A DNA stretch of 64,000 nucleotides. Source: Gammaproteobacteria bacterium (GTDB lineage Bacteria; Pseudomonadota; Gammaproteobacteria; Pseudomonadales; Pseudohongiellaceae). The translations under genes and the position numbers were made by a program. A model generated the notes under the pieces. It did no database searches and had not been told where the DNA came from. It was given only the letters and a program-made list of their open reading frames with translations. This document shows positions 31,409 through 40,376 of this stretch, piece by piece. Position 1 is the stretch's first letter. Each line of letters starts with the position of its first letter. The stretch is from NCBI GenBank assembly GCA_009922595.1, contig RFVC01000003.1, positions 1 to 64,000 of the forward strand, read 5' to 3'.

Positions 31409-34400
31409 TCAGTTCAGCCAGAGGCGCGCATTTCGGAACATGCGCATGGTCGGGCCGTCTTCCCCCCACTCATCACTCTGCCAGGCGTTAGCGACTGCAC
31501 GGAAGACCCTTTCTGGGTGCGGCATCATAATGGTGAAACGCCCATCTTGACTGCAAATGCCCGTGATGCCTTCTGGAGAGCCATTCGGGTTGGCCGGGTA
31601 TCTTGAAGCTATATTTTCGAAGTTATCGATAAACTGCAGGGCCACGGTACCGCTAGCAAGTGCAGCCGCTTCAGCTTTTCTGGACGCAAACTCGGCCCTG
31701 CCCTCACCATGGGCACAGGCAATAGGAAAGACAGAAGCGGTCATATCCCTGAAGAATACTGAATTGGAATCGGCCACTTTTACCAGCACTGTTCTGCCTT
31801 CAAACTGCTCTGAGCGGTTGCGCACAAACCGCGGCCAGTGATCGGTTCCGGGAATCAGTTCATGCAGGTTGGACATCATCTGACAGCCATTGCAAACACC
31901 TAGCGCCAGCGTCTCGCCACGACAGAAAAATTGTTCGAATTCTTTTCTTGCCCTTTCGTTGAATAAAATTGACTTGGCCCAGCCTTCGCCGGCACCAAGT
32001 ACATCCCCGTAAGAAAATCCGCCACAGGCTGCCAGGGCATTGAAGTTATCCAGTGAGACATTGCCGCTGATGATGTCACTCATGTGAACGTCAATACTGT
32101 CAAAACCGGCCCGATCAAAAGCCGCGGCCATTTCCATTTGAGAGTTAACACCCTGCTCTCTGAGAATGGCGATACGCGGACGTTCGCCAAGGGCAATAAA
32201 AGGATGACTGATGTCTTCATCAGAAGCATAGGTCAGCTTGGACTGTAAGCCAGGATTATCGGCTTCGAGAATACTGTCGAATTCTTCATCAGCACATTCG
32301 GAGTTATCACGGATACGCTGGATCTGGTAACTGGTTTCTGACCAGAGCCGCTGAAAATGTGTGCGCGTATTCTCCAGCACCACGTTGCCGGCAAGTGTAA
32401 AACGCACCGTATCTTCAGGTACCGGCCTGCCAATGCCGCAACAGATATCGAGTAAACCGGCTTCATCCGCAATTTCTTTTACCCTGCTGATATTGTCTTC
32501 ACTGACCTGGATGACTGCACCGAGTTCCTCATTGAACAGGGTGTCGAGTGCATGGCCCTGGCTGCTGGCATCATCCAGATGAATATCCAGGCCGCAGTGA
32601 CCCGCGAATGCCATCTCGACCAGGGTGGTAAAGACACCGCCATCGGAGCGGTCGTGGTAGGCCAACAGCAGATCTTCCTCTAAGCAGTCCTGAATAAAAC
32701 CGAAGAAGGCCTTCAGATCAGAGGAACTGTGTACATCAGGGACTTCACTGCCCAGCGCCTTGTAGACCTGCGCCAGTGCCGACCCACCCAGACGGTTGGA
32801 GCCAAGACCAAGATCAAGCAGTATAAGGCGGGAGTCGCCTTCATCAAGACGCAGCTCTGGTGTCGCTGTTTTGCGAATATCACTGACCGGTGCAAACGCG
32901 GAAATAATCAAGGACAAGGGTGCGGTTACGCTTTTTTCCTTCCCCTGATCCTCCCAGACTGTGCGCATGGACATGGAGTCCTTGCCAACGGGTATGGTGA
33001 TGCCAAGTTCAGGACAGAATTCCATACCAACGGCTTTTACCGTTTCATACAGATTGGCATCCTCGCCGGGATAACCCGCCGGCGCCATCCAGTTCGCGGA
33101 AAGGCGGATGTCACTGATTTTATGGATGCGGGTACTAGCTATATTGGTGATGGACTCGGCTACGGCCATCCGCCCCGAGGCCGGCGCGTTAATCAGAGCG
33201 CTTGGCGTGCGCTCACCCATCGCCATGGCTTCGCCGTGGTAACTGTCGTAAGTGAGCGCCGTAACAGCGGCATCGGCTACCGGCACCTGCCAAGGCCCAA
33301 CCATTTGTTCTCGCGCCACCAGGCCAGTGATACAGCGGTCGCCTATCGTAATCAGAAAGCTCTTGCTTGCTACTGTCGGTAGCTGCAACACACGCTCTGC
33401 TGCATCGTTGGCATCAATGCCGCCTAGATCAAAATCTGTGAATGCCTGTTTTACTGAAGCCACATCACGATGCATTCTTGGTGGTTTACCAAAAAGCACT
33501 GACATGGGCAGATCAATGGGGGCGTTTTCAAAGTGTGAATCTTTCAGCTCCAGGTGCAAAGCTTCTGTCGCTTCGCCGACCACGGCAAATGGGCAACGCT
33601 CTCTTTGACAGATGGCGGCAAAATCCCCAAGACGGCTTTCCGGAATTGCTATCACGTATCTTTCTTGGGCCTCGTTGCACCAGATTTCCATAGGAGACAT
33701 GCCGTGTTCTGCGTTGGGAATATCACGCAGCCTGAATTTGCCGCCCCGCTCGCCGTCCTTCACCAGTTCCGGAAGGGCATTCGAAAGCCCGCCGGCACCA
33801 ACATCGTGAATAAAACTAATCGGGTTGTTCTCGCTGAGACCCCAGCACTGGTCAATAACTTCCTGGCAGCGGCGTTCCATCTCGGCGTTGTCACGCTGCA
33901 CAGAGGCAAAGTCAAGATCCTCATTGCTGGCGCCGGAAGCCATTGATGACGCAGCCCCGCCGCCAAGACCAATGAGCATAGCCGGGCCACCGAGCACCAC
34001 CAGTTTCGCCCCGACAGGAATATCCTGCTTCTGCACGTGTCCTGCACGGATGTTGCCGACCCCCCCGGCAATCATTATCGGCTTGTGATAGCCACGCACA
34101 CCGTCCGGCGCCTCTTCCTCGAAGGTGCGGAAATAGCCGCAGAGATTTGGCCTACCGTATTCGTTGTTGAAGGCAGCACCCCCAATAGGCCCCTCGATCA
34201 TGATGTCCAGTGCTGAGACGATATGGCCGGGTTTGCCGTAATCGGTTTCCCATGGCTGTAGAAAGCCGGGAATTTTCAAGTTGGAAACACTGAAACCAGT
34301 CAGACCAGCCTTAGGCTTACCGCCAGTACCAGTTGCCCCTTCATCGCGGATTTCTCCGCCGGAACCGGTAGATGCCCCCGGGTATGGGGCTATAGCGGTA

Positions 34401-35293
34401 GGATGGTTGTGGGTTTCGACCTTACAGAGAATGTGAACATCCTCCTCATGATAGGTGAACTGGCGAGTCTGAGGATCGGGGAAAAAACGCCCGGCCTTGA
34501 AGCCTTCAAACACGGCCGCATTGTCCTTGTAGGCAGAAAGAATGCCCTTGCTGTTGTTTTCATGCGTATTACGGATCATCGCGAATAGGGAGTGATCCTG
34601 GTCCTGTCCATCAATGGTCCAAGATGCATTAAAGATCTTGTGTCGACAGTGTTCAGAGTTTGCCTGGGCAAACATCATCAGCTCAATATCATTAGGGTTT
34701 CTGCCCAGGCCTGAAAAACTTTTAACGAGGTAATCAATTTCATCATCGGCCAGTGCCAAGCCCATTCGGCTGTTCGCTTCCTCAAGGGCGAGTCTTCCGC
34801 CGCCAAGAATGTCCACGTTATTCATGGCAGAGGGGTTGGACTGTTCGAACAACACAGAGGCTTCATCGGTTGAGGCCATCACGGCCTGAGTCATGCGATC
34901 GTGCAGCAACGCCTTGAGCCCATTACGGTCGTAATCAGCATCAGCTTCCACCAGGTAGGCAGTGCCACGTTCTACCCTTTTTAATTTGCTGAGTCCACAG
35001 TTCCAGGCGATATCAGTGGCCTTGCTGGACCAGGGTGAAATAGTCCCAGTCCTTGGTGTTACAAGGTAAAAGTCACCGGCTGCAGGATCAAGGGCATCAT
35101 GCTGGCGAGGACCGTAGGTCAGAAGCCTTTCTAGAATTGCCATTTCCTGCGCAGAGAAATCTTCCGACACGTCGACAAAATGATAAAAATAGGTATGAAC
35201 AGCCTTGATGGCAGGATGGGCAGTCTGGATTGTCTGGAGCAGTTTCTGGCTGGAAAAAGCAGAGAGAGCTGGAGCTCCACGTAGGGTTAGCAT
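31409..35293 (-). CDS. purL: Phosphoribosylformylglycinamidine synthase
   Basis: 1294 residues, the long single-chain form of gammaproteobacteria. [13 protein letters not shown] opens as in E. coli Pur[16 protein letters not shown] lies near residue 210, [31 protein letters not shown] near 290 is the FGAM synthetase ATP site, and [17 protein letters not shown] follows near 505. The C-terminal glutaminase has GVCNGCQMM with the nucleophile Cys near 1136 and [11 protein letters not shown] for His/Glu. It converts FGAR, ATP and glutamine to FGAM in purine synthesis. The 470-bp upstream gap holds the sigma-54 small RNA on the opposite strand; no obvious PurR box was seen. Confidence 0.98.
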
Positions 35294-35566
35294 CGCTTGC
35301 TGAAAATCCTGGGCGACCGAGTTAAAACAAGTTTTATATTCTACTGGAAATGGTCACCTACATGAATAAGCAGAGGCGCCTTTTACGCTGAAGCTGGGTG
35401 ATTTTTGAACGTTAAAAGCAGGATAAGCACCAGTTTGGGCTTTCTATTCTTTAGCGCACCAAAAGCGTGCTCCAAGTTAGATCATCGTCAGGGCCTTTAC
35501 AAGAGAATTTTTCCCAAAAAGCAGAAATATTTAATATTTTCAGTTAGTTAAATAAAATTTGCCAAG

Positions 35567-35584
35567 TTGGCACACTCTCTGCAT
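35567..35584 (+). promoter_or_regulatory. Sigma-54 (-24/-12) promoter
   Basis: TTGGCACACTCTCTGCAT has GG at 35569-35570 and GC at 35581-35582 with exactly ten bases between, and TTGGCAC at the -24 side as in the RpoN consensus. Transcription would start near 35593-35595. There is no coding sequence downstream before the strong terminator at 35677-35706. Confidence 0.75.
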
Positions 35585-35593
35585 GTAGATGAG

Positions 35594-35706
35594 TAACGGA
35601 CAATATTACTTCTCCCCTTTTGTGATAGCGACCGTTATTTCCCCTTGAGACCCCCCAAGTCTCTATTACTTTGTATAGGCCCCTGCCCCCAGGGGCCTTT
35701 TTTTTT
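35594..35706 (+). ncRNA. Candidate sigma-54-dependent small RNA, about 113 nt
   Basis: The interval between the RpoN-type promoter and a strong terminator contains no credible ORF. It can fold into three stems: TAACGG (35594-35599) with CCGTTA (35632-35637), GAGAC (35647-35651) with GTCTC (35659-35663), and the terminator stem AGGCCCCTG/CAGGGGCCT with loop CCCC and nine Ts. C-rich single-stranded stretches (CTCCCCTTTT, TTTCCCCTT, CCCCCCAA) would suit pairing with Shine-Dalgarno sequences, as in several known sRNA families. It lies alone between divergent purL and the LysR gene. E. coli GlmY is also sigma-54-dependent and near purL, but on the other side of purL and without recognisable similarity, so I do not call it GlmY. 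Confidence 0.65.
35677..35706 (+). terminator. Rho-independent terminator of small RNA
   Basis: Nine-bp stem AGGCCCCTG / CAGGGGCCT, loop CCCC, followed by nine T residues; there is no T run on the other strand, so it acts on plus-strand transcripts. Confidence 0.92.
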
Positions 35707-35764
35707 ACTGTCTTTTTAGGATGCTTTACCACCTTTGACAGCCTTTGACACCTGTTCGTTCTGT

Positions 35765-36697
35765 CTAGAGGATGCCGACATCACCGCCGAACTGCCTTTC
35801 GATCTCACCCTGGATAAAGCCACCCAGTTCCCGATAGAAACCTCTCAATGGTGATGAATCACGCCAGACCAGGGCATGCATGCGCTCGATCTTCTCACCG
35901 GTGATGCTGTGGACACTTAGCTCATCCCTGTCCAGAATTTCTGACCTGATATAAAGAGAAGGTAGGAAAGCCACCCCCATCTCCATATAGACCATTTGCC
36001 TGATGGAATCGAGACTGGTGCCTTCGTAGTCACGTAAGAGCTCCGCCTTGAACTGTTTACACAGATCTTCCACCTGCCGGAACAGCAGGTGATGCTCTTC
36101 GAGGGTCAGAATTTCGACTCCCTCCAGCTGATCGCCATCGACCGACTGCTGAGTTGCCAGCGGATGGCTCTTGTTCATGACTAGGTACAGTGGCTCCCTG
36201 AAAAGCGGCATGATGGTGATGCCCTGTTCTTTCAAGGGCAGTGTCGTCAGGATCAGATCATAACGACCGCTATACAGACCCTCTGCAAGGTTGTCAGGCA
36301 CCTCTTCTCGAACGAAGAATTTGACGGAAGTAAATTCTTTGTGCACTTCCGGCAGTATCCAGGGCAATGCGTAGGGACCGATCGTCGGGCTGGCACCCAA
36401 CCTAAAGGTACCGGATGGGCCTTTTGTAGCAAAGTTCGCTGCATCGACGATGGCCTCTGCGGCATTTACGGCTTGCTGGGCCTGTTTAATCAGATCCCGA
36501 CCGAATGGTGTCAAAGTGACCCCACCCCTACTACGCTCAAATAGCTCAACGCCCAGACCGTCCTCTAGCTTTTGCATTTGGGCACTCAGGGAGGGCTGGC
36601 TGATCTTGAGCTCTCTGGCCGCCTGACGCAGGCTCTCATGACGCGCTGTGGTTAGGTAATAGCGTAATTGTTTCAGCGAAATACAAAGATCTTTCAT
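35765..36697 (-). CDS. LysR-family regulator, OxyR-like but without the peroxidatic Cys
   Basis: 310 residues. The N-terminal winged helix (LKQLRYYLTTARHESLRQAARELKISQPSLSAQMQKLE, residues 8-45) is standard LysR. The effector domain resembles OxyR (DLILTTLPLKEQGI, GTSLDSIRQMVYMEMGVAFLPSLY). Aligned by eye, E. coli OxyR Cys199 falls on Leu204 and Cys208 on Cys213, so disulfide peroxide sensing is not possible in the known way. It diverges from the carbonic anhydrase/SulP operon across 207 bp, and LysR proteins commonly control the divergent operon. A role in sensing CO2/bicarbonate or a metabolite is therefore an inference. Confidence 0.9.
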   Translation of the reverse strand: MKDLCISLKQLRYYLTTARHESLRQAARELKISQPSLSAQMQKLEDGLGVELFERSRGGVTLTPFGRDLIKQAQQAVNAAEAIVDAANFATKGPSGTFRLGASPTIGPYALPWILPEVHKEFTSVKFFVREEVPDNLAEGLYSGRYDLILTTLPLKEQGITIMPLFREPLYLVMNKSHPLATQQSVDGDQLEGVEILTLEEHHLLFRQVEDLCKQFKAELLRDYEGTSLDSIRQMVYMEMGVAFLPSLYIRSEILDRDELSVHSITGEKIERMHALVWRDSSPLRGFYRELGGFIQGEIERQFGGDVGIL

Positions 36698-39357: not shown

Positions 39358-40122
39358 TTACAGTTCGAAGTCAATTCCATAAGATACTACAAATTTAACT
39401 TCGTCATTGTCCCGAGCAGGCATGTTAGCATAATCTTCAAAGCCATCACCGTCACCGTCTGAATCCAGATCAGTGAAGGTTACCATAGCAGTGAAACCAT
39501 CTTTAGCAATGCTGACGTTGAAGTCCATGTAGTCTTCGGTCACACCATTAAATGAATAGGCGAAGTCACCTTCGTGAAAACCAGCGTGTAAACCAAGTTC
39601 TGCACCGCTTTCCAGAGGGATAGTATAATCCACAGAGAAGTAAGACGCCTCTGCGAAACCGAAGTCCTCACCCGGGCCTTCATCAGGCTCAGCGTTGGTC
39701 AGCAAGTAAAGGGTAAGGCCTAAATTACCAAGTCCAATGGATCCGTAGATTTCACCAAAGTCGTAACCTGCGTTCGAGTCATAGTTATAATATAGATACC
39801 CAACGTCATAACTGAAACCTTCAGCCTCACCAGAGAAACCAAAGTAGATGTCATGCTCATAAGAATAAGCATCGTCTGAATCATAAGAGACATTTGACGC
39901 CCAGGTACCGATGTAGAAACCAGACTCATCTGCGTAATCAATACCACCCTGAACGGCTGATTCGTTGATTGATTGGGTTAGACCTCGCCAAATGTAGTTG
40001 TTTGTAACGCTTACGTTACCAGACAGTTCCGCATAAGTAGGTACAGAAACTGTGGCTGCAGCCATGGTTAGAGCTGATACAGCCAGAGGTTTTTTAAAAG
40101 TCGTTATCAGCGAATCTTTCAT
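39358..40122 (-). CDS. TorF-family putative porin
   Basis: 254 residues from ATG 40122; the frame continues to 40161 but MKDSLITTFKKPLAVSALTM opens the signal peptide, ending TYAE. The mature start LSGNVSVTNNYIWRGLTQS is the hallmark of the TorF family (TIGR02001), followed by repeated amphipathic strands rich in Tyr and Asp and a C-terminal VSYGIDFEL ending in the alternating pattern expected of an outer-membrane barrel. An acidic loop DLDSDGDGDGFED resembles a calcium-binding loop. It may pass small solutes; nothing ties it to the SulP system except position. Confidence 0.85.
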   Translation of the reverse strand: MKDSLITTFKKPLAVSALTMAAATVSVPTYAELSGNVSVTNNYIWRGLTQSINESAVQGGIDYADESGFYIGTWASNVSYDSDDAYSYEHDIYFGFSGEAEGFSYDVGYLYYNYDSNAGYDFGEIYGSIGLGNLGLTLYLLTNAEPDEGPGEDFGFAEASYFSVDYTIPLESGAELGLHAGFHEGDFAYSFNGVTEDYMDFNVSIAKDGFTAMVTFTDLDSDGDGDGFEDYANMPARDNDEVKFVVSYGIDFEL

Positions 40123-40334
40123 ATTTAATTCTCCTAGTGTGTCTCTCGTGAGACTATTCAATTGATTAAGCCAGGAAAGCTGTTATTTCCTTGCCATCTA
40201 TTAGCAAGGACCTTGCCAATAAATCTATCTGATTGATTTTTATAGGAAATATTAATATGTGTTGAAAAGTTTATAGGTTGTGACACTGCGGGGATAGCCT
40301 TTATCGCTACCTTATAGTGCGGTGTTCAGGCAAT

Positions 40335-40358
40335 GCGCACCTATTTGGTGCGCCATTT
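40335..40358 (+). terminator. Terminator hairpin with no upstream plus-strand gene
   Basis: GCGCACC, loop TATTT, GGTGCGC, then CATTTTT. The T run is on the plus strand only, while both flanking genes (porin and tadA) are on the minus strand, so it may end an unannotated short transcript. Confidence 0.5.
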
Positions 40359-40376
40359 TTGTGCAAATGCTAGGGC

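Follow-up and report, generated by a model that had tools for sequence, protein, structure and literature searches.

A predicted NtrC/sigma-54-type small RNA with C-run loops beside purL, and an apparently undescribed RNA family in Pseudohongiellaceae

A predicted small RNA and the closest described systems

GlmY/GlmZ and Qrr are sigma-54-dependent small RNAs (sRNAs), and the CrcZ/CrcY RNAs titrate Hfq/Crc through A-rich motifs. The cited sources describe NrsZ of Pseudomonas aeruginosa as an NtrB/C- and RpoN-dependent sRNA (PMC8395346, PMC9308961), CrcZ/CrcY of Pseudomonas as CbrB/sigma-54 sRNAs (PMC9308961) and, in Enterobacteriaceae, a nitrogen-regulated sRNA that comes from the glutamine synthetase mRNA (PMC9731577). 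For the mycobacterial B11 RNA, pairing of the C-loop with G-rich 5' UTRs was shown by mutants of both loop and UTR (PMC10470900). The window analysed here is a stretch of 64,000 nucleotides from a member of Pseudohongiellaceae (contig RFVC01000003.1, positions 1 to 64,000), for which an undescribed, sigma-54-driven, C-rich sRNA had been proposed between purL and a lysR gene. The features of this locus are the following.

31409–35293, minus strand: purL, divergent neighbour, which adjoins the element in G001–G004 as well
35567–35583, plus strand: sigma-54 -24/-12 box TTGGCACACTCTCTGCA, read from the sequence and kept in 5/5 copies of the genus
35594–35706, plus strand: predicted small RNA of about 113 nt, its start inferred from the box and its end from the T-run
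35593–35638, plus strand: first hairpin, imperfect, from the fold, with CCCC (35614–35617) in the loop and slight covariation
35641–35644, plus strand: C-run in an unpaired linker, from sequence and fold
35647–35663, plus strand: second hairpin, from the fold, with CCCCCC (35651–35656) extending into the loop
35677–35706, plus strand: intrinsic terminator with a C-run in the loop and nine T after the stem-loop, from the sequence and 5/5 copies
35765–36697, minus strand: gene of a LysR-type regulator, convergent neighbour, which adjoins the element in G001–G004 as well

The box contains TTGGCAC (35567–35573), and its GG (35569–35570) and GC (35581–35582) have the ten-base spacing that had been claimed for it; its -12 part reads CTGCA where TTGCA is expected. 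The window holds 7 boxes with one mismatch against 4.76 expected, a number reached by 21 of 100 shuffles; such boxes are not rare, so the box proves nothing alone. The terminator was also found as described, with a 9-bp stem and a 4-nt loop (35677–35698) followed by nine T (35698–35706), and the letters of its stem and loop are identical in the five copies of the genus. The segment 35592–35708 folds with a minimum free energy of -35.4 kcal/mol (z -5.31), a stability equalled by none of 200 shuffles, and this fold contains the two further stems of the original prediction. Its C-runs of four to six in or near loops are present as well, and we counted five in the window copy, with lengths of 4, 4, 6, 4 and 5.

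No open reading frame had been seen in between. A 19-codon frame does overlap the RNA, but it begins before the predicted +1, with an ATG at 35589. By eye, the frames of the relatives differ in length, and from one genome to the next the loops gain or lose one or two bases, which breaks any common reading frame. That the locus produces a short coding transcript is scarcely credible.

When compared with NrsZ, the window element resembles it in being an intergenic gene with a sigma-54 box, and NtrC and nitrogen limitation are likely here as well. However, NrsZ is 226 nt long and processed, whereas the window RNA is predicted at about 113 nt, and NrsZ adjoins ntrC, whereas the window element adjoins purL (contig C113 of its own genome, whose ntrC is on C244). 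The NrsZ motif ACAGGCAG is absent from the five copies of the genus, and the C-run loops are a further difference from NrsZ. With 6C/B11, the element has in common C-run hairpin loops, possibly redundant, and G-rich 5' UTRs as the expected partners; two hairpins with C-run loops, the 6C feature that bears on how the RNA would work, are present in it. In contrast, mycobacteria belong to another phylum and the window element is predicted to be sigma-54-controlled, and no 6C model of Rfam was among its matches at the gathering threshold or among those with E up to 10. The window RNA would work like NrsZ in its signal and like 6C/B11 in its C-loops while appearing to belong to neither. The likeness to CrcZ/CrcY is that of a sigma-54-dependent intergenic sRNA, predicted here, and the difference is that the window element has no CbrB-like site. 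The sRNA of the glutamine synthetase mRNA is likewise tied to nitrogen limitation but is released from a 3' UTR, whereas the window RNA has its own predicted promoter. In Rfam, no family was matched at its gathering threshold, which upholds the description of the RNA as undescribed; the 12 matches at E up to 10 were all under their gathering scores, and GlmY/GlmZ and Qrr were matched at neither level. Among the open-licence papers listed in literature searches, no title or abstract opening describes the window RNA.

Conservation of the element and its relatives in other genera

When 57 genomes were searched at the DNA level, the element was detected in the window's own genome and in G001–G004 (E 2e-14 or less); G005 of the same genus gave only a 23-nt match, on a different contig. 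Model R1, built from the window's genus, agrees with this result, placing the element in five of the six genus genomes. In the five carriers it is flanked by the 5' end of purL and the 3' end of lysR and is oriented toward lysR. Mean pairwise identity over the box and the RNA is 84% in the five genomes, compared with 74% for lysR, and the 100-bp flanks reach 62% upstream and 59% downstream, with shuffled values of 56% and 59%. Five C-runs of at least three letters stand at matching positions in every genus copy, and G004 has one extra. This conservation is the decisive support for the existence of the element, and it bears out the expectation that promoter, stems and C-runs would be kept in close relatives. 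Of the compensatory changes also expected, few are seen in the five sequences of the window's genus (97.2% of cells paired and two pairs changed on both sides, equalled by 26 of 500 shuffles), and they are clearer in genus g3, described below.

Among 20 lysR loci (L081–L100), four have the element, L094 has a diverged copy, L085 retains a terminator remnant and 14 have none. The element is absent although purL adjoins lysR in L093, L097, L098, L099 and L100; the last is the locus of G005, which lacks the RNA and retains the palindrome CGCACCAATGCTGTGCG. Matches in L093 and L098 proved to be the end of a SulP gene with a terminator, not the element. In G152 of genus g4 (L085:4519–5693) the terminator stands alone beside lysR, near transposase and integrase fragments; a second LysR C-terminal fragment was also observed near this remnant. 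The L094 record (CAMDML010000065.1) is labelled Klebsiella pneumoniae, a label that looks wrong, its genes matching the window's family.

The same build, in which a sigma-54 box precedes two hairpins with C-run loops and a terminator, recurs in four further genera of the family. In G022 (genus g8) a diverged copy lies upstream of purL (E 2.3e-6 with R1), followed on the same strand by a porin gene; used as a query in a DNA search, this copy matched G022 alone (1 of 137 family genomes). A second place in G022, L043, was not alike. The g3 element of G065, used in the same way, matched 17 of the 137 genomes, namely G011 (g7), G078 (g5) and 15 of genus g3, a figure that counts the g3 genomes with a match. 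The g3 type is found as follows.

L121–L131, L136, L137, L041, L150: g3 loci with the C-loop RNA before an S1/P1 nuclease gene

Every part of this build is present in G011, G078 and G064: the sigma-54 box, the two hairpins, whose loops are C-rich, and the terminator. Each of the three has an NtrC-like site as well. Model R2, built from g3, detects them in 6.5 kb with E values of 2.9e-15 (G011), 1.2e-16 (G078) and 7.7e-43 (G064), and the corresponding values for R1 are 4.5e-6, 0.026 and 0.0014. The arfB/VOC neighbourhood of g3 is common to G011 and G064. The related elements of the two more genera lie at L148 (G011) and L149 (G078).

The g3 alignment, which is imperfect in the region of hairpin 1, holds 13 of the 15 g3 elements. 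The stem of hairpin 2 is invariant and its loop reads GACTCTCCCCTT in 13/13 sequences, and hairpin 1 bears CCCC in its loop in 12/13, G014 being the exception. On this imperfect alignment, both partners are changed in seven pairs, as in 2 of 500 shuffles, and the covariation score is 0.159 compared with 0.088 (0 of 500 shuffles); the number of additional pair types is unremarkable (84 of 500 shuffles).

The surroundings of these copies bear on two other readings of the element. It might be a leader with an attenuating terminator for the downstream gene and not a free sRNA, as 14/14 g3 loci, and G064, have an S1/P1 nuclease gene next to it in the same orientation. However, lysR, the next gene in the window's genus, is on the opposite strand in 5/5 cases, and the porin gene that comes next in G022 seems, by eye, to have its own sigma-54 box; we regard a leader as improbable in general, and read-through control of the g3 nuclease gene may occur. 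That the RNA acts as an antisense regulator of lysR, the convergent gene 58 bp away in the window, is more improbable still, since the G022 copy sits elsewhere, between purL and the porin gene, and the g3 copies adjoin other genes.

Across the whole family of 137 genomes, R1 gave matches with E up to 0.1 in 12: the five of the genus, G022, G014 and G065 of g3, G152 (terminator only), and G083, G125 and G128, whose matches were by eye without a sigma-54 box or like hairpins and were rejected. In a search over 48 kb, R1 detects 12 of 14 g3 loci with E up to 1, and in G019, the one g3 alignment displayed, its hairpin 1 is matched to hairpin 1 of g3. In the other direction, R2 gives E values up to 0.019 for the window and for G001, G002 and G003, and 0.043 for G022, and misses the element of G004. 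Over 390 genomes drawn from the order, R2 reaches E 0.01 in six, all g3. R1 reaches E 0.01 or less in five of the 390, those of the window's own genome and G022 being genuine by eye; the matches in G241 and G281 are by eye without a sigma-54 box, and that in G480 does have the box, together with an NtrC-like site and an RNA that folds, but lacks C-loops. As G480 scores 40.8 bits with R1, above every g3 element, the R1 scores lean mainly on box and terminator and are not by themselves proof of kinship. Common descent of the elements of the five genera is nevertheless likely, though not proven, because they share one build and are matched reciprocally; they would form an NtrC/sigma-54 sRNA family, apparently undescribed, in at least five genera. 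The G480 locus, which is of another family (L140:1501–1653), has its NtrC-like site at -169 and a strongly folded RNA with a terminator, and is perhaps a different sigma-54 sRNA.

Candidate activator and signal

The original prediction had left the signal as nitrogen or carbon status. The features that bear on the choice are these.

35455–35471, plus strand: NtrC-like site CGCACCAAAAGCGTGCT with 9 of 12 consensus letters, 112 bp upstream of the box at 35567–35583
39358–40365: putative porin gene of the TorF family (TIGR02001) and its upstream sites, among them a perfect sigma-54 box at 40203–40219, minus strand
L080:1644–2741 (G000:C1, own genome): CbrB-like sigma-54 activator gene between pcnB and gluQ

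We scored the NtrC motif TGCACC-N5-GGTGCA in the 220 bp upstream of the element. The best sites have 9/12 letters at -112 in the window (equalled by 27 of 500 shuffles), 10 at -101 in G001 (6 of 500), 9 at -141 in G002 (57), 12/12 at -114 in G003 (0) and 9 at -111 in G004 (33). Those of G001 and G003 are individually significant, that of the window is moderate, and in this genus the sites lie mostly 101–114 bp upstream of the box. A score of 9 is reached by 29 of 100 upstream regions of other frames; the summed score of the five copies has a chance of 0.00085 if these are independent, which orthologues are not. The G022 site is equalled by 44 of 500 shuffles. In g3, sites of 9–11 occur in 13/14 upstream regions, nine of them at -154 to -156, and shuffles do as well in 197 of 500 cases for G014 and 40 of 500 for G065. 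G064 and G011 have sites of 10/12 and G078 one of 9/12.

Other genes of these genomes carry the motif too. Before the sigma-54 box of the window's porin gene, where two NtrC-like sites overlap (40336–40365), 2 of 500 shuffles are as good, and the layout of this promoter is by eye similar in G001, G003 and G022; on these sites, the porin gene probably belongs to the same nitrogen regulon. Paired NtrC-like sites 21 bp apart precede the glutamine synthetase genes of G001, G002, G004 and G005, and the own genome has a single site there, no pair; the pattern used detected no sigma-54 box before the glutamine synthetase genes. The own glutamine synthetase (L116, G000:C245) is GlnII-like, with 384 bits against an equivalog cut-off of 500, and no type I GlnA was above cut-off in the six genus genomes, G003 giving no match whatever.

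RpoN and NtrC were found above cut-off in all six genomes of the genus. The own genome has a single RpoN and a single NtrC above cut-off. Its only other strong match to the sigma-54 activator domain is the CbrB-like protein, and four more matches are weak (E 6e-7 or worse). An alternative is a carbon-status sRNA that depends on a CbrB-like activator acting via sigma-54, and a CbrB-like gene does lie between pcnB and gluQ in 6/6 genus genomes, an interval that we take to be the usual place of CbrB. However, the protein of the own genome has no receiver domain (the orthologues of G001–G005 are longer, aligning from the receiver on), NtrC-like sites are present, and the CbrB motif reached 7–8/12 at best upstream of the element, so that no CbrB-like site was found there. 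We consider a carbon-status sRNA quite unlikely. Nitrogen is favoured over carbon because NtrC-like sites lie upstream and a CbrB-like site was not found, which leaves the nitrogen part of the original prediction standing and its carbon part not favoured. Judged by these sites, NtrC is probably the activator of the predicted sRNA, and nitrogen limitation is the likeliest signal.

Proposed action and meaning of the RNA

Taken as a whole, the evidence is explained best, and with somewhat better than even probability, by a stand-alone NtrC/sigma-54 sRNA that pairs with mRNAs via its C-runs. The course that we infer is as follows. Under nitrogen limitation, phosphorylated NtrC would bind upstream (35455–35471 in the window) and let sigma-54 polymerase start near 35594, and transcription would end at the hairpin 35677–35698. 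The resulting RNA, about 113 nt long and ending in a U-tail, would show its C-runs in two hairpin loops, the linker and the terminator loop. These would pair, probably with the help of Hfq, with the G-rich ribosome-binding sites of several mRNAs, which would then be translated less, as with the C-loops of the mycobacterial B11 RNA. Hfq was found in five of the six genus genomes, including the own genome, and not in G003. A crude pairing scan of 73 start regions of the window gave no trusted target; a DUF1552 gene and a SnoaL-like gene have G-rich sites upstream and were not called targets.

The C-loops might instead bind protein rather than mRNAs, as CrcZ holds Hfq/Crc. The presence of several similar C-runs in one RNA, constant though loop lengths vary, is in line with such a decoy, but the twelve loop letters kept in hairpin 2 of g3 are more than a C-run needs, and that we know of no bacterial regulator that binds C-runs also counts against it. 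A protein decoy is unlikely. Going further along the line of mRNA pairing, the RNA could under nitrogen starvation be a broad translational brake, in which several interchangeable C-run loops cover the G-rich ribosome-binding sites of many mRNAs, and the five genera could share a single old family, its gene having moved between purL–lysR, purL–porin and arfB–nuclease neighbourhoods; this is a speculative possibility, less probable than simple pairing with mRNAs. If true, a 6C-like design would have arisen independently in Gammaproteobacteria and been wired to NtrC.

NrsZ is the well-known NtrC/sigma-54 sRNA of the same order, and the window element would represent a second family, conserved in several genera. 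For target searches, the twelve g3 loop letters are a sharp seed. Such a second family would show how little-studied bacteria link translation to nitrogen supply and, if so, nitrogen control would be joined to a C-loop design studied in mycobacteria.
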